DNA of 64,000 nucleotides. Origin: Phycicoccus sp. M110.8. Its GTDB lineage: Bacteria; Actinomycetota; Actinomycetes; Actinomycetales; Dermatophilaceae. A model generated the notes under the pieces. It ran no database searches. It saw only the letters and a list, made by a program, of their open reading frames with translations, and was not told the origin of the DNA. Shown one piece after another: positions 1-4,641 of the stretch. The DNA is taken from positions 434,001-498,000 of the forward strand of contig NZ_JAWDIC010000001.1 in the NCBI RefSeq assembly GCF_032464895.1, written 5' to 3'. The translations under genes were made by a program, and so were the position numbers. Each line of letters opens with the position of its first letter. The first letter of the stretch is position 1.

Positions 1-134
1 CGCTCCGGCTCCGGACCCGCAGCGGCCGGCCACGTCCCGGTCCGCGAGACGCGGCACGGCGCTCGTGGACGGGTCGGGCGGCTCCGTGCTCCACTGGAGC
101 CGTGACCTCCTCCACCGCCACGACGCGCACGCAC
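1..134. other. Left edge, no assigned gene
   Basis: Frame 1 is open from the window edge to a TGA at 103-105 and could be the last 34 codons of a plus-strand gene starting outside the window. Its composition (Arg/Gly/Ala rich) does not allow a family to be named. No promoter or hairpin is obvious here. Confidence 0.25.
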
Positions 135-182
135 ATGGTGTCCATGTGCCACGGCGTCATGCGGTGTCGCTGCTGCGCCTGA
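135..182 (+). CDS. Short Cys-rich mini-ORF (possible leader peptide)
   Basis: A 15-codon ORF reads MVSMCHGVMRCRCCA and contains four Cys codons, three of them in the last five residues. No Shine-Dalgarno sequence is visible before the ATG, so it would have to be leaderless or be untranslated. It lies about 200 bases upstream of a cysteine dioxygenase gene. Short Cys-rich upstream ORFs are known in actinobacteria as cysteine-responsive attenuators of sulfur genes; applying that here is an inference. It could be a chance ORF. Confidence 0.3.
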   Translation: MVSMCHGVMRCRCCA

Positions 183-246
183 CCCCAGCCCGCACCAGCC
201 CGCGTCCGCCCATCCCGGCAGGACGCACGAGACCGGAGACCACCTC

Positions 247-480
247 ATGGCCACGACGCCCACCAGCCACACGGCATACCGCCGCATCCACCTCGACCTG
301 CTGCTGACGCAGGGGTCCGTATGTCCCCGAATGTGCTGCCCCGCAACGCATTCCGACATACCGACCACTGACCAGGAGCACTACCGTGAGCATCGCCACC
401 ACCGCCGGGACCCCCGGCGTCAACCGCTTCACCCGTCACCAGCTGCTGCGCACCGCGCGCCTCTTCGCCTCCGACCCTGA
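247..480 (+). CDS. Cys-containing upstream ORF overlapping the cysteine dioxygenase start
   Basis: A 77-codon ORF begins with an ATG eight bases after a GGAG Shine-Dalgarno-like sequence (235-238). It carries a Cys cluster, with codons at 322, 334 and 337 in the context VCPRMCC. It runs 95 bases into the next gene in a different frame, so its translation must interfere with or modulate initiation at 386. The downstream part encodes a low-complexity Arg/His-rich tail that looks like antisense-quality protein, so only the first ~35 codons are likely meaningful. This fits a cysteine-sensing leader peptide better than a stable protein. No family was recognised. Confidence 0.45.
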   Translation: MATTPTSHTAYRRIHLDLLLTQGSVCPRMCCPATHSDIPTTDQEHYREHRHHRRDPRRQPLHPSPAAAHRAPLRLRP

Positions 481-871
481 CCTGCACCGGCTCGTCGACC
501 TCGACGCGCGCGAGCGCACCTGGACCCGGCTCGACGCCACCGAGCACCTCGAGATCTGGCTCATAGGCTGGCCGGTCGGCAGCGGCACCGGCTGGCACGA
601 CCACCTGCTGTCCGAGGGCGCGTTCCTCACCGTCCGCGGCGAGCTCGCCGAGCAGACCTGGGCGTCCGGCACCGTGCACGACCGGTTCCTCTGGGAGGGC
701 GAGGGCCGCTCGTTCGGCCCACGCCACGTGCACAACGTCGTCAACCTCGGCGACCGGCCGGCCCTGTCCGTGCACGTCTACTCCCCCGCCCTGCGCGGGA
801 TGACCCGCTACGCGCTCGTCGACGACGTCCTGCGCCCCACCGGGGTCGAGCAGGCCGGGGAGCAGTGGTGA
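386..871 (+). CDS. cdo: Cysteine dioxygenase (type I, cupin)
   Basis: A 161-residue cupin that oxidises L-cysteine to cysteine sulfinate with non-heme iron in the cytoplasm. The first cupin motif contains WHDH, giving His71 and His73 with Glu77 after them. The second contains PRHVHNVVN, where His116 matches the third iron ligand of rat CDO by eye. SVHVYSP carries the conserved His and Tyr of the active site. The Cys that forms the Cys-Tyr cross-link in mammals aligns with Gly78, as is usual in bacterial enzymes. A GTG start follows AGGAG at 374-378. The stop overlaps the next gene, a rhodanese, so the pair should be co-translated in cysteine sulfur catabolism. Two Cys-containing short ORFs precede it. 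Confidence 0.92.
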   Translation: MSIATTAGTPGVNRFTRHQLLRTARLFASDPDLHRLVDLDARERTWTRLDATEHLEIWLIGWPVGSGTGWHDHLLSEGAFLTVRGELAEQTWASGTVHDRFLWEGEGRSFGPRHVHNVVNLGDRPALSVHVYSPALRGMTRYALVDDVLRPTGVEQAGEQW

Positions 872-1443
872 CCGCCACCGTGACGGCGCCGGCGCCGACC
901 ACCACCTCGCCGCCGGTCACTGCCTCCGCGCCAGTCACCGCACCGGCACCGGCCGCCGCCTCGGTCTTCTGGGAGTCCCGCCTCTACAGCGACCCCAATA
1001 GTGCACCCACGGCCGACGGCGGACAGGCCGCTGGTCGCGGCTGGGACGCGCCGGCCTACGACGGCGTCGACGACCAGCTGGCCGACTCCCGCAGCCGGCT
1101 GCTGCGGGTCAGCGCGCGGGCCGCGTACCAGGAGGTGCTGTACGGGCGAGCCGTCCTCGTGGACATCCGCCCGGCGGCACAGCGAGCGGTCGAGGGCGAG
1201 GTCGCCGCCCACCTCGGCCCGCTGGTCGTGGAGCGGAACGTGCTCGAGTGGCGGTTCGACCCGCGCAGCGCGGCGCGGCGCCCCGAGGCCGGCTTCGACA
1301 CGCGCGTCATCGTGCTCTGCCAGGAGGGCTACACCTCGTCGTTGGCGGCGGATGCGTTGCTGCGACTGGGGATTCGACGGGCCACCGACGTGGTCGGCGG
1401 CTTCCGGGCGTGGCGGGAGGTTGGGCTGCCGGTCGCGGCCTGA
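865..1443 (+). CDS. Rhodanese-like sulfurtransferase
   Basis: A 192-residue cytoplasmic protein with an Ala/Pro/Thr-rich N-terminal tail of about 35 residues and one rhodanese domain. The C-terminal half shows the active-site loop VLCQEGYTSS, with Cys as the likely persulfide-carrying nucleophile, followed by the typical GGFRAW ending. It overlaps the stop of the cysteine dioxygenase gene; GTG codons at 865 and 868 are both possible starts, and the latter gives a GTGA overlap. Rhodanese next to CDO suggests handling of sulfane sulfur or sulfite produced during cysteine breakdown. The exact acceptor cannot be read from the sequence. Confidence 0.87.
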   Translation: MVTATVTAPAPTTTSPPVTASAPVTAPAPAAASVFWESRLYSDPNSAPTADGGQAAGRGWDAPAYDGVDDQLADSRSRLLRVSARAAYQEVLYGRAVLVDIRPAAQRAVEGEVAAHLGPLVVERNVLEWRFDPRSAARRPEAGFDTRVIVLCQEGYTSSLAADALLRLGIRRATDVVGGFRAWREVGLPVAA

Positions 1444-1491
1444 CGGCTGAGCGGCCTCATCTCGCGCGGCACCACCTTCGCGTCGCAGGGG

Positions 1492-1818
1492 TCAGAGGTA
1501 GAGGCCAGTCTGCCCGTCGTCGACCCGGGCCGCGGCGACGGCGTGGATGTCGCGCTCGCGGAGCACGACGTAGTCCTTGGCCTGCACCTCGACCTCGGCC
1601 CGGTCCTCGGGGTCGAAGAGCACCCGGTCGCCCAGCTCGACCTGGCGGACGTTGTGCCCGACGGCGACGACCGAGCCCCACGACAGGCGTCGACCGACGC
1701 TCGCGGTCGCGGGGATGACGATCCCGCCGCCGGATCGCCGCTCCCCCTCGCCCTCGAGGGCGACGAGGACGCGGTCGTGCAGCATCCGGATGGGCAGGCG
1801 GGAGGTGTCCTCAGCCAC
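1492..1818 (-). CDS. GroES/Cpn10-family co-chaperonin-like protein
   Basis: A 108-residue protein with the Cpn10 fold signature: IRMLHDRVLVAL at the start, GGIVIPATA in the mobile-loop region, then WGSVVAVG, LGDRVLF and a final VVLRERDIHAV. It is somewhat longer than classical GroES and is not next to groEL, so it is probably a paralogous co-chaperonin. I chose the GTG at 1818 because it overlaps the stop of the upstream DUF3618 gene by 8 bases; an ATG at 1836 would lengthen it by six residues. Its role with a chaperonin is inferred from the family. Confidence 0.85.
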   Translation of the reverse strand: MAEDTSRLPIRMLHDRVLVALEGEGERRSGGGIVIPATASVGRRLSWGSVVAVGHNVRQVELGDRVLFDPEDRAEVEVQAKDYVVLRERDIHAVAAARVDDGQTGLYL

Positions 1819-2080
1819 GGCGTCGACGCACGGCACCCAGCCCGATGAGGGCCACCGCTGCCGCGGCGAGCGCGGCGATGCGCTCGGTGCGCAGCTCGCC
1901 GGTGGGGGTGCGCGTCGCCTCGGTGAACTTCACCTTGGCGGTCTCGACCTGGCGCCGGGCGATCTCCTGGGGCGCGGTGCGGGTGTGCAGCTCGTCGACG
2001 GTGCCGGCGAGGCGGCTGCGCGCCGCCGCGATCTCGGCCTCGATCTCGTCGACGGACTTCGGTGCGGTGTGCTCGCTCAT
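1811..2080 (-). CDS. DUF3618 domain protein, small membrane-anchored
   Basis: An 89-residue protein with the DUF3618 pattern: an acidic amphipathic N-terminal helix (DEIEAEIAAARSRLAGTVDEL), a basic middle, one C-terminal membrane helix at about residues 67-83 and an Arg-rich cytoplasmic end. The family is common in actinobacteria, often near stress or membrane proteins, and has no assigned reaction. Its stop overlaps the start of the GroES-like gene, so the two are probably translated together. Confidence 0.82.
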   Translation of the reverse strand: MSEHTAPKSVDEIEAEIAAARSRLAGTVDELHTRTAPQEIARRQVETAKVKFTEATRTPTGELRTERIAALAAAAVALIGLGAVRRRRG

Positions 2081-2126
2081 GGTCGTCTCCTGCGGGCCGG
2101 CGGGTGGGTTCGGCGGTGGGCCGGGA

Positions 2127-2600
2127 TCAGTCGTCGATCCCGAGGTCGCGGCGCAGCTTGGCCACGTGCCCGGTTGCCTTGACGTTGTACTGGGCCTGCG
2201 TGACGGTGCCCTTCTCGTCGACGACGACGGTGCTGCGGATGACGCCCTCCACGGTCTTGCCGTAGAGCTTCTTCTCGCCGTACGCGCCGTAGCTCTGCAT
2301 GACGGACTTGTCGGCGTCGGAGAGCAGCGTGATGGTGAGGCCGTCCTTCTCGCGGAACTTCGCGAGCTTGTCCGGGGAGTCCGGGGAGATGCCGAGCACC
2401 TCGTACCCGTGGCCGCGCAGGCTGGCGATGTTGTCGCTGAAGTCGCAGGCCTGGGTCGTGCACCCCGGGGTCATGGCCGCCGGGTAGAAGTAGACGATGA
2501 CCTGCTTGCCGCGCAGGTCCGACAGGGTGACCTTGCCGCCCTTGTCGTCGGGGAGGGTGAAGTCGGGGGCGGTGTCGCCGGGGGTCAGACGGTCAGCCAT
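2127..2600 (-). CDS. bcp: Thioredoxin-dependent thiol peroxidase (Bcp/PrxQ)
   Basis: A 157-residue cytoplasmic peroxiredoxin that reduces hydroperoxides using thioredoxin. The motif PGCTTQACDF gives a peroxidatic Cys47 and a resolving Cys52 five residues later, the arrangement typical of PrxQ/Bcp. The N-terminus APDFTLPDDKGG is also characteristic. The ATG at 2600 is preceded by a GAGGCGACC stretch and gives the standard family length; longer readings in this frame are spurious. It is divergent from the nickel transporter, and the Nur-type box lies between them. Confidence 0.96.
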   Translation of the reverse strand: MADRLTPGDTAPDFTLPDDKGGKVTLSDLRGKQVIVYFYPAAMTPGCTTQACDFSDNIASLRGHGYEVLGISPDSPDKLAKFREKDGLTITLLSDADKSVMQSYGAYGEKKLYGKTVEGVIRSTVVVDEKGTVTQAQYNVKATGHVAKLRRDLGIDD

Positions 2601-2632
2601 GGTCGCCTCGCTCTCGCCGGGGGTTCTGTTGT

Positions 2633-2647
2633 TGCAACTCGTTTGCA
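2633..2647 (+). promoter_or_regulatory. Nur-type operator (nickel-responsive Fur family)
   Basis: The sequence is TGCAA-CTCGT-TTGCA, which matches the published Streptomyces Nur box (tGCaa-N5-ttGCA) at every specified base. It sits 71 bases before the start of the CbiM-CbiN-CbiQ fusion and 32 bases before bcp on the other strand. A TANNNT element (TAAGGT, 2649-2654) directly follows and could be the −10 of the transporter promoter, so bound Nur with nickel would block polymerase. The match is seen; regulation is inferred. Confidence 0.75.
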
Positions 2648-2718
2648 ATAAGGTGGTCTCCAGCAGCGTCCCCAACCTATCCCAGGTGGGTGCGGTCCAC
2701 CCGACTGGCAGGAGCCCC

Positions 2719-4641
2719 GTGCACGTCCCCGACGGATTCCTCGACGCGTCCACGTCGTGGGCCACCGCCGGCATCGCCACGGCCGGTGTCGGGGCAGCCC
2801 TCGTCGGCGCGGCCCGCCGCGAGCTCGACGACCGCACCGCTCCCCTTGCCGGTCTCGTGGCTGCCTTCGTCTTCGCTACCCAGATGCTCAACTTCCCCGT
2901 CGGCGCCGGCACCAGCGGCCACCTGCTCGGCGGGGCCCTGGCGGCCGTGCTGGTCGGCCCCGCGACCGCGACGCTGTGCCTCACGGTCGTGCTCCTCGTG
3001 CAGGGACTGCTCTTCGCCGACGGCGGCCTCACGGCCCTGGGCACCAACGTCACGCTCATGGGGCTGGTGGGGGTCTGGGCGGGGTACCTCGTCTTCCGGC
3101 TGGTCCAGTCCGCGCTCCCCCGGCGCGTGTCGATGGTCGCCCCGGCGGCCGTCGCGGGCGCCTTCGTCTCCGTGCCGGTCGCGGCGCTGGCCTTCTGCGG
3201 GCTGTATGCCGTGGGCGGCCAGGCCGCCATCCCGCTCGACCGCCTCGTGACGGCGATGGTCGGCTGGCACGTCCTCATCGGCATCGGCGAGGCGGTCATC
3301 ACCGGCCTCGCCGTCTCCTCGATCCTGGCCGTGCGGCCCGACCTCGTCCACGGCGCCCGCCGCGTGCTGGCGCAGCGAGAGCTCGTCGTCCGCGGTGCGG
3401 TGGCGGTGGCCGCCGCGAACCGGACATCCGCCCCCCGGACACTCGACTCCCGGACGGCCCTCCCCCGGGCACACGGTTCCCTGGCACCCGCACCAGCGGA
3501 CGGCGCCCCTGGCCGCAGCGGCACCGGTTCCCGCCCGGCCGTGAGCTCGCGGGCCCTCCTGACGACCGGGCTGGTCGTGGTCCTGCTGCTCGCCGGCGTC
3601 GTCTCCTTCTACGCCTCACGCCACCCGGACGGCCTCAACCACGTCGCCCGCACGCTGGGCTTCGGCAGCACCGCCACCCGGCACACGTCCGACGGCTCGC
3701 CCTTCTCGGGCTACGCGACTCGCGGCATCGGCGACGCCCGCCTGTCCCGAGGCCTGGCGGGCGTGGTCGGCGTGGTCCTCGTCGCCGCCGTCGGTGCCGG
3801 CCTGTTCTGGAACCTGGGCCGCAGGGCCCGGCCGGAGACTGAGGACGAGGTCGCGGCCCGGACCGCGAGGACGACGGGAGCGGGCGCTGGTCACGGGCAC
3901 CACCTGCACTTCCACGGGTACTCGCCGATCCACCGCCTGCCGGCCCACACCAAGCTCGTGGCCCTCGTGGCATACGTCGTCGTCGTGGTGGCCACGCCGC
4001 GGAACCTGCCCTGGGTGTTCGCGGTGCACGCCGTCCTGCTCGGCGTCGCCGTCGCGGTCTCCCAGGTGCCTCCGCGCTACCTGGCCCGACGCATGGTCGT
4101 CGAGGTGCCGTTCGTCGTCTTCGCGCTCCTGCTGCCGTTCGTCGCCACCGGGCCCAGCGTGCAGGTCGGCCCGCTCAGCCTGTCCCAGCACGGGCTGGCC
4201 GGTGCCGCCGCACTGCTCGTCAAGGGCACGCTCGGCGTCCTGGCGTCGCTGCTGCTCGCCGCCACCACCGAGCCCCGCGACGTCGTCGCCGGCCTGGAGC
4301 GGCTGCGCCTGCCGCACCAGCTCGTGCAGATCATGGGTTTCATGATCCGCTACCTCGAGGTGGTGACCGGAGAGCTGGCGCGGATGCGGGTGGCCCGCGA
4401 GTCCCGCGGCTTCCGGGCCCGGTCGGTGCGGTCGTGGCCGGCGCTGGCGTCCACCGTGGGGGCGTTGTTCATCCGGTCCTACGAGCGTGGCGAGCGCGTC
4501 CACCTCGCGATGCTGTCCCGCGGCTACACCGGGCGTATGCCGGTGCCGCACCCCATGACCGCGACCGCCGCCCAGTGGCGGCTCGCCGCAGCCCTGCCCG
4601 TCGCGGCCCTCGCCGCCCTGCTCCTGGGAGTCGCCGCGTGA
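2719..4641 (+). CDS. CbiM–CbiN/PDGLE–CbiQ fusion, nickel/cobalt ECF transporter membrane component
   Basis: A 640-residue membrane protein joining three normally separate subunits. Residues 1 to ~225 are CbiM/NikM, the metal-binding S component; the N-terminus MHVPDGFLD carries the conserved Met-His needed for metal binding and fixes the GTG start at 2719 (AGGAG at 2710-2714). Residues ~270-385 hold two membrane helices around a PDGL motif and an SPFSGYA loop, as in CbiN/PDGLE proteins. A His-rich linker (GHGHHLHFHGYSPIH, ~390-404) leads into CbiQ, the T component, with an ESRGF coupling motif. It overlaps cbiO by GTGA. The preceding Nur-type box argues for nickel rather than cobalt. MNQ fusions are uncommon; the family normally uses separate genes. 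Confidence 0.92.
   Translation: MHVPDGFLDASTSWATAGIATAGVGAALVGAARRELDDRTAPLAGLVAAFVFATQMLNFPVGAGTSGHLLGGALAAVLVGPATATLCLTVVLLVQGLLFADGGLTALGTNVTLMGLVGVWAGYLVFRLVQSALPRRVSMVAPAAVAGAFVSVPVAALAFCGLYAVGGQAAIPLDRLVTAMVGWHVLIGIGEAVITGLAVSSILAVRPDLVHGARRVLAQRELVVRGAVAVAAANRTSAPRTLDSRTALPRAHGSLAPAPADGAPGRSGTGSRPAVSSRALLTTGLVVVLLLAGVVSFYASRHPDGLNHVARTLGFGSTATRHTSDGSPFSGYATRGIGDARLSRGLAGVVGVVLVAAVGAGLFWNLGRRARPETEDEVAARTARTTGAGAGHGHHLHFHGYSPIHRLPAHTKLVALVAYVVVVVATPRNLPWVFAVHAVLLGVAVAVSQVPPRYLARRMVVEVPFVVFALLLPFVATGPSVQVGPLSLSQHGLAGAAALLVKGTLGVLASLLLAATTEPRDVVAGLERLRLPHQLVQIMGFMIRYLEVVTGELARMRVARESRGFRARSVRSWPALASTVGALFIRSYERGERVHLAMLSRGYTGRMPVPHPMTATAAQWRLAAALPVAALAALLLGVAA

Follow-up and report, generated by a model that had tools for sequence, protein, structure and literature searches.

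Why a gene for a cysteine-degrading enzyme should be preceded by short reading frames rich in cysteine codons is the question raised by the left end of a 64,000-nucleotide stretch of Phycicoccus sp. M110.8 DNA (the window). An earlier note on this DNA had proposed a cysteine-responsive attenuator of cysteine dioxygenase (cdo) and had remarked that simple stall-activation would work in the wrong direction here, so that the wiring might be new. Both upstream ORFs that it named are present in the sequence, namely a 15-codon ATG ORF (135-182) whose four Cys codons lie at 147, 165, 171, and 174, and a 77-codon ORF (247-480) that has its Cys codons at 322, 334, and 337 and overlaps the cdo start (GTG 386) out of frame. 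The features of the locus, all on the forward strand of the window, are as follows.

66..95, + strand: promoter-like block, with a -35-like TGGAC (66-70) and an extended -10-like TGC TCCACT (87-95), from a 15-locus alignment
102..182, + strand: uORF1, 26 codons, GTG start, probably leaderless, V/M-TSSTATTRTHMVSMCHGVMRCRCCA, from alignment and conservation
102..110, + strand: putative anti-SD1, the first 9 nt of uORF1, with GTG:CAC and CTCC:GGAG pairing to the uORF2 SD
165..176, + strand: polyCys tract of uORF1, read from the sequence as TGT (codon 22), CGC, TGC, TGC
235..243, + strand: uORF2 SD (GGAG) and flank, predicted to pair with the uORF1 start
247..480, + strand: uORF2, 77 codons, with an RRxHxDL-x7-C(TGT) core at 280-324, overlapping the cdo start out of frame
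298..306, + strand: putative anti-SD2, uORF2 codons L18-L20 (CTGCTGCTG), complementary to the cdo SD
322..324, + strand: core Cys codon of uORF2, TGT, from codon comparison across loci
322..358, + strand: predicted hairpin containing the Cys codons of uORF2 (TGTC 322-325 with GACA 355-358; GAATGTG 329-335 with CGCATTC 347-353)
373..381, + strand: cdo SD (CAGGAGCAC), from sequence and folds
386..871, + strand: cdo, cysteine dioxygenase family (PF05995, Pfam CDO_I, 73.9 bits), start GTG 386
865..1443, + strand: gene for a rhodanese-domain protein, overlapping the cdo stop

The start of the first ORF probably lies further upstream. In 14 relatives with tandem leaders, a conserved ATG (opening 'MSST' or close to it) stands at the position of GTG 102, and the frame from GTG 102 runs for 26 codons to a stop at 180-182. 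The ORF itself holds, but its start is most likely GTG 102 rather than ATG 135. The extended -10-like element ends 6 nt before GTG 102; in leaderless promoters the -10 lies about 7 nt before the start. This arrangement (TGn-TnnnnT with T-12 and T-7, 6 bases before the start) was found at 22 of 23 polyCys uORF1 loci, L041 being one base longer, and at 8/8 further uORF1 loci that had been selected by a filter on that same spacing (30/31 overall). A sigma-70 consensus search gave no match. Translation of uORF1 probably begins without a leader, right at the mRNA 5' end. The Cys codons of uORF1 lie close to the stop, at codons 22, 24, and 25 of 26, a run of the mycobacterial type; a Cys stands at codon 22 in 27 of the 31 uORF1 loci, and in the homologues the Cys tract forms the C-terminal end. 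A second type of uORF1, in genera g4, g19, g24, and g28, keeps the MSS start and has a single Cys near the end. Before the cdo genes of L008, L009, L012, L017, L066, L070, and L072, this type reads MSS...[TM]WH.C.., with the Cys at codon 22 or 23; L072 carries an additional Cys at codon 7.

The second ORF contains the pattern R-x-H-x-D-L-x7-C, in the form R13-I-H15-L-D17-L18-x7-C26. In 23 homologues, H15, D17, L18, and C26 were invariant and R13 nearly so, under a search pattern in which H and C were mandatory and E or M was permitted for D and L. On our reading of the profile hits, this core defines the NCBIfam family NF042934 (cis_reg_atten). The window uORF2 did not match the NF042934 profile (cut-off, 27 bits), and we therefore regard it, by position and motif, as a diverged relative and not as a family member. 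At E <= 10, 6/23 homologues matched, and the cut-off was reached by L004 (28.3 bits), L068 (27.3 bits), L015 (28.5 bits), and L013 (31.7 bits); the leader of L004 occupies the same position as the window uORF2, behind a uORF1. The cdo leader of genome G500, from family f25 (taken to be a Streptomyces-like family), scored 35.3 bits. In the NF042934 family proper, A replaces the core H in 19 of 36 leaders. NF042934 gave only sub-cut-off matches in the window's own genome, in longer frames, and profiles of uORF1 and uORF2 were each significant at the window locus only, the next best matches having E values of 0.27 and 0.77. Three leaders of family f12 (L168, L170, and L171) read KRRAVDLCR[VI]AGCCC followed by more Cys, with TGT as the core Cys codon; this polyCys run joined to the core links the polyCys leaders with the NF042934 core. 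A +1 frameshift joining uORF2 to cdo was considered and dropped because of an intervening stop in L032 (frames compared by eye).

The core Cys was encoded by TGT in 65/65 cdo leaders, in 30/30 leaders among the matches listed from class genomes with profile matches (51 of 79), and in all six other leaders of G500 and G037. The joined set shows TGT in 101/101 rows, or 100/100 distinct loci (30 of them among the matches listed) after removal of L194, which is L099 counted twice. The search patterns fixed the Cys residue and not its codon, and the TGT criterion was found here, not taken from publication. Other Cys codons in the same leader stretches were 117 TGC versus 23 TGT, and 30 long ORFs of the window had 100 TGC versus 7 TGT, a comparison biased against TGT because these ORFs were picked mechanically at GC3 >= 0.85. 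Codon choice is variable for the leader Arg and His residues, and Asp can be GAC or GAT, whereas the core Cys is always TGT; the surrounding peptide is thus kept as a peptide and the Cys as a codon. UGU is read through G34 wobble. No report of UGU in Cys leaders was found in the open-licence literature searched.

Chance ORFs would be a natural thought in this GC-rich leader, since open frames are common at 73% GC. The earlier note had suggested a search for the same ORFs before cdo in relatives, and this search recovered both, in 11/11 genomes of the window's genus (polyCys uORF1 and uORF2 core each) and beyond it. The family survey covered 186 genomes; cdo was detected at E <= 1e-30 in 50 genomes at 56 loci, and all upstream regions were scanned. 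A uORF2-type leader preceded 23/56 of these loci, with L014 matching the regular expression but excluded from the count as not leader-like. The MSST-type polyCys uORF1 likewise preceded 23 of the 56 (g1, 11/11; g42, 2/2; g52, 1/1; g6, one locus; g18, 8/8). The two stood in tandem at 15/56 loci, and each also occurred alone. In the class survey of 393 genomes, cdo was present at E <= 1e-20 in 79, and 75 additional loci were scanned. The RRxHxDL leader was found on the sense strand at 41/75 of them (f25, 36/38; f31, 2/7; f42, 2/2; f23, 1/14), in none of the seven other families, and at 0/75 on the antisense strand in the same scan. This distribution, together with the TGT codon at every one of the 100 distinct loci (30 among the matches listed), contradicts the chance reading, which is almost certainly wrong. 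The RRxHxDL leader of one f31 locus (L084) is itself preceded by a Cys-rich ORF. The spacer between leader and cdo at L119 (genome G201) contains 44 consecutive C.

We next consider how the two leaders could act on cdo. RNAalifold and single folds agreed on two long-range helices: P0, which pairs the first nine uORF1 bases with the uORF2 SD, and P2, which pairs uORF2 codons 18-20 with the cdo SD. In whole-leader folds of the 15 tandem loci, the main partner of the uORF2 SD was the uORF1 start in 14, and the main partner of the cdo SD lay within uORF2 in 14 (in 13, at the DL-x-L codons); in L004 the cdo SD partner lies beside the Cys, and L005 shows neither P0 nor P2 pairing. When a shorter stretch was folded, the uORF2 SD paired with uORF1 nt 1-10 in 15/15 loci, where shuffles of the upstream sequence predict 0.57. 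These models suggest that the uORF2 SD may be sequestered by uORF1 RNA. Outside g1, g42, and f25, the main partner of the cdo SD lay no more than 20 nt upstream of the core Cys codon at 11/16 loci against 1.13 expected, although the 20-nt window of this shuffle test was chosen after earlier folds had been seen and the loci are related; at the remaining 5/16 loci the expected pairing of the cdo SD was absent. The hairpin with the uORF2 Cys codons was found mainly within the genus, being weak or lost in L048, L049, L003, L004, and L005.

Complementarity to SD sequences also appears in other leader arrangements. Pairing of the cdo SD with the final leader codons is predicted at 34/36 f25 loci. 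At the uORF1-only loci of g4, g19, and g28, the best match of the uORF1 start is with the cdo SD directly (6/6), with permutation fractions of 0.000-0.095; the loci with a second-type uORF1 start matching the cdo SD are L009, L012, L017, L066, L070, and L072. At several g18 loci, an altered uORF1 start (ATGTCGTCG) is complementary to a stretch immediately before the cdo SD (CGACGACAT), both partners being unlike those of the other clades; this is clearest in L051 and L052. The match was no better than that of permuted sequence in L053 (0.21) and L057 (0.115), and the best uORF1-start match lies elsewhere in L054 and L057.

Pair counts reached 86.3% in register versus 29.5-48.0% when the strands were slid. 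Covariation was weak, as most pairs are invariant and shuffles often did equally well, and the same was true of the f25 helix. Masking a ribosome footprint at Cys26 raised the mean openness of the cdo SD from 0.15 to 0.23 in the whole leader and from 0.16 to 0.28-0.35 when folding began at uORF2; in f25, with the mask at the TGT codon, the increase was from 0.06 to 0.18-0.28. For the window itself, openness of the cdo SD went from 0.17 to 0.60-0.70 with a ribosome 11 codons past Cys26, compared with 0.32-0.37 for one at Cys26. A lone ribosome at uORF1 codon 22 raised the openness of the uORF2 SD from 0.13 to 0.23, and a ribosome on the uORF1 start or a three-ribosome queue gave 0.44. Given these modest gains and the weak covariation, the cascade is plausible but short of demonstrated.

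The reading that we favor, and consider somewhat more probable than otherwise, is a two-stage translational attenuator that answers to cysteine, with cdo and the rhodanese gene switched on at low cysteine. In the first stage, ribosomes would enter the leaderless uORF1 directly at the mRNA 5' end; since its first nine bases are the anti-SD for uORF2, uORF2 would open only under ribosomes on the uORF1 start. When Cys-tRNA is short, ribosomes would stall at the polyCys tract from codon 22 onward and queue back to that start. In the second stage, the cdo SD would be sequestered by uORF2 codons 18-20, and a ribosome held at TGT (Cys26), aided by the RRxHxDL nascent chain, would disturb this pairing and free the cdo SD. 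With ample cysteine, ribosomes would traverse uORF2 across the cdo start and cdo expression would stay low. The net output would thus be expression of cdo and the rhodanese gene at low cysteine, like that of sulfur-assimilation genes. A leader without sensing function, in which uORF2 merely occludes or couples cdo translation through its overlap and the Cys codons are incidental, would fit the overlap with the cdo start, which is seen at every one of the 11 genus loci as well as in g42 and g6. However, the leaders of g52, g20, g37, g38, g7, and f25 stop short of cdo and still carry the core TGT, which makes this explanation very unlikely.

The sign of the switch was judged from the genes that keep company with this leader type. 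Of the six leaders above the family cut-off in genome G500 of f25, one lies in front of cdo. Behind the remaining ones lie genes for a MoaD-like ORF and then cysteine synthase, for a symporter, for a nitrite/sulfite reductase-like protein, for SsuE, and for a sulfurtransferase; SsuE also follows a further such leader in G037. Only cysteine synthase and the two SsuE proteins were above NCBIfam cut-offs, the remaining neighbors being named by their best sub-cut-off match and two of the neighbor proteins from 330 residues of sequence. The symporter of L164 (G500:C1:5133402), right behind its Cys leader, has the C4-dicarboxylate transporter DctA as best sub-cut-off match and is possibly a cystine importer. 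Because the leader type also stands before cysteine synthase, ssuE, and other sulfur genes, low cysteine is likely to be the ON state of the cdo leader as well, the same direction as in mycobacteria. The attenuator proposed for this locus is borne out in its conserved Cys-rich uORFs and suitable RNA pairing but not in a reversed or new sign: the same leader type precedes genes of cysteine synthesis and sulfur acquisition, and the anatomy fits stall-activation at low cysteine. The apparent wrong direction is itself real. It recurs in the distant family f25, so it more likely reflects the purpose of the cdo-rhodanese operon than a new wiring.

Cysteine dioxygenation under cysteine scarcity makes no obvious physiological sense. 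The cdo enzyme may use another thiol, sulfite may be produced to break disulfides and thereby gain cystine, or the rhodanese partner may recycle sulfur. Published expression data bear on the same point. In the available part of one report, cysteine dioxygenase and four sulfurtransferases of Gordonia NB4-1Y were higher on sulfonates than on MgSO4 (PMC7661421), a comparison of growth substrates rather than of leaders. The excerpt on strain KK-T describes a rise of two cdo genes at 96 h along with CysD, CysNC, CysC, and CysH (PMC12763843). In Streptomyces SCUT-3, according to the section available, cdo1 and cdo2 were up 50.2- and 8.3-fold on feather (keratin) medium (PMC7181669), which could be an induction by cysteine.

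This last observation would suit an arrest of the TnaC kind, in which the RRxHxDL chain would respond to free cysteine, or to some other sulfur compound, and a high level would turn the catabolic gene on. The annotation of cdo as catabolic and the conservation of the residues before the stall codon despite varied codons, which points to a role for the nascent chain, agree with it as well. It is opposed by the same leader type standing, in one genome, before cysteine synthase and sulfur-acquisition genes, which are expected to be on at low cysteine, and by the rise of Gordonia cdo on sulfonates noted above (PMC7661421, as far as the available part extends); we hold such an arrest to be unlikely. 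Equally doubtful is control at the level of transcription, probably Rho-dependent, with uORF ribosomes gating the access of Rho to the C-rich spacer between the uORFs or to RNA beyond uORF2. Of the 48 bases in this spacer (183-230), 26 are C and 12 are G, and Rho has been proposed for mycobacterial cys leaders in the accessible portion of PMC1262725. Against transcriptional control, no intrinsic terminator was detected within positions 1-1500, which is silent on Rho, and SD complementarity in several clades indicates translation.

A more specific version of the two-stage attenuator takes the invariant codon at face value, and we offer it tentatively, as rather improbable. The arrest code of the leader family would be the nascent RRxHxDL chain together with UGU in the A site, the sensor would be decoding by tRNA-Cys(GCA), this would form the second stage of the cascade in the window's genus, and cdo-rhodanese would be a sulfur-starvation operon. 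With an obligatory, rare, wobble-read UGU, the sensor would report the charging of tRNA-Cys(GCA), and perhaps a sulfur-dependent tRNA modification, rather than Cys codons generally. In this genus, the start codon of the leaderless uORF1 would itself be the anti-SD.

In addition to the leaders, we examined the locus that they precede. An ORF overlapping the 3' end of cdo, with a rhodanese-like C..G..S motif, was present at 14 of 15 loci checked; further downstream in the window (2127-4641) are what we take to be peroxiredoxin-like and CbiM-like reading frames. Rfam gave no match in positions 1-3000 at E <= 5. The closest solved chains to the window CDO were 8qfr/8qfl (63.8 and 63.6 bits), with 3eqe/4qm8 at 26.7 bits, and all four carry the label cysteine dioxygenase. 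We take 3eqe/4qm8 to be Bacillus enzymes and 8qfl to be ergothioneine dioxygenase. An identity of the window cdo as ergothioneine dioxygenase was considered and set aside, as part of L027 is, by eye, nearer to 8qfr/8qfl than the window enzyme. No leader was found before the L027 cdo, and ergothioneine is not claimed as a substrate because it is this leaderless locus that is more 8qfl-like. Arg44 of the window CDO was aligned by eye with the Arg60 position, which does not settle the substrate.

The system is real and conserved, and it is of a known kind, the cysteine leader peptides of Actinobacteria. Polycysteine attenuators formed by leaderless sORFs in Mycobacterium smegmatis were reportedly described by Canestrari in 2020, and their Cys tract is said to be the partner of the SD. 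As far as the available accounts go, the window shares with them a Cys-rich, putatively leaderless uORF at the 5' end and a sulfur gene downstream. It differs from them in having two leaders in series and cdo as the target gene, and here the role of anti-SD is predicted for the bases around the uORF1 start codon, not for the Cys tract. The RR.H.DL...C core of uORF2 resembles NF042934 ('putative leader peptide') and NF042936 (Ms4527A); unlike these, the window copy is below detection, has a longer tail with an additional RMCC cluster, and overlaps cdo. Translation attenuation by leaderless Cys-rich uORFs is reported for mycobacterial cysteine genes in the parts available of PMC4633059, PMC9094748, and PMC13236596. 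Cys-codon runs close to the stop, with no terminator found, are likewise described in the accessible portion of PMC1262725 for the leader peptides of Mycobacterium and P. acnes cys operons and of Bifidobacterium cbs; in that portion they are without a tandem leader or cdo. In Rhodobacterales, the cysS attenuator uORFC-8-2 is also a uORF with Cys codons ahead of a cysteine gene, but in the excerpt available it uses an intrinsic terminator, and UGC is the prevailing codon there in contrast to the invariant UGU of the present leaders (PMC8632094). A leader before metNIQ of S. lividans, called methionine-dependent, ends in CMCRRMCAF (PMC8079986, Table 4, seen in part), and its Cys codons may be sensors. 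In the open-licence literature searched, we found no title or abstract opening describing leader peptides before cdo and no report of the tandem arrangement with an obligatory UGU.

The tandem design shows the stacking of two unlike cysteine leaders, and the invariant UGU offers a specific and cheap way to test whether the codon itself, and not just the amino acid, matters to attenuators. If the proposed reading is true, the cdo genes of many Actinobacteria would share low-cysteine control with sulfur assimilation, which would call their role in cysteine disposal into question and would point instead to the release of sulfur or the formation of sulfite.
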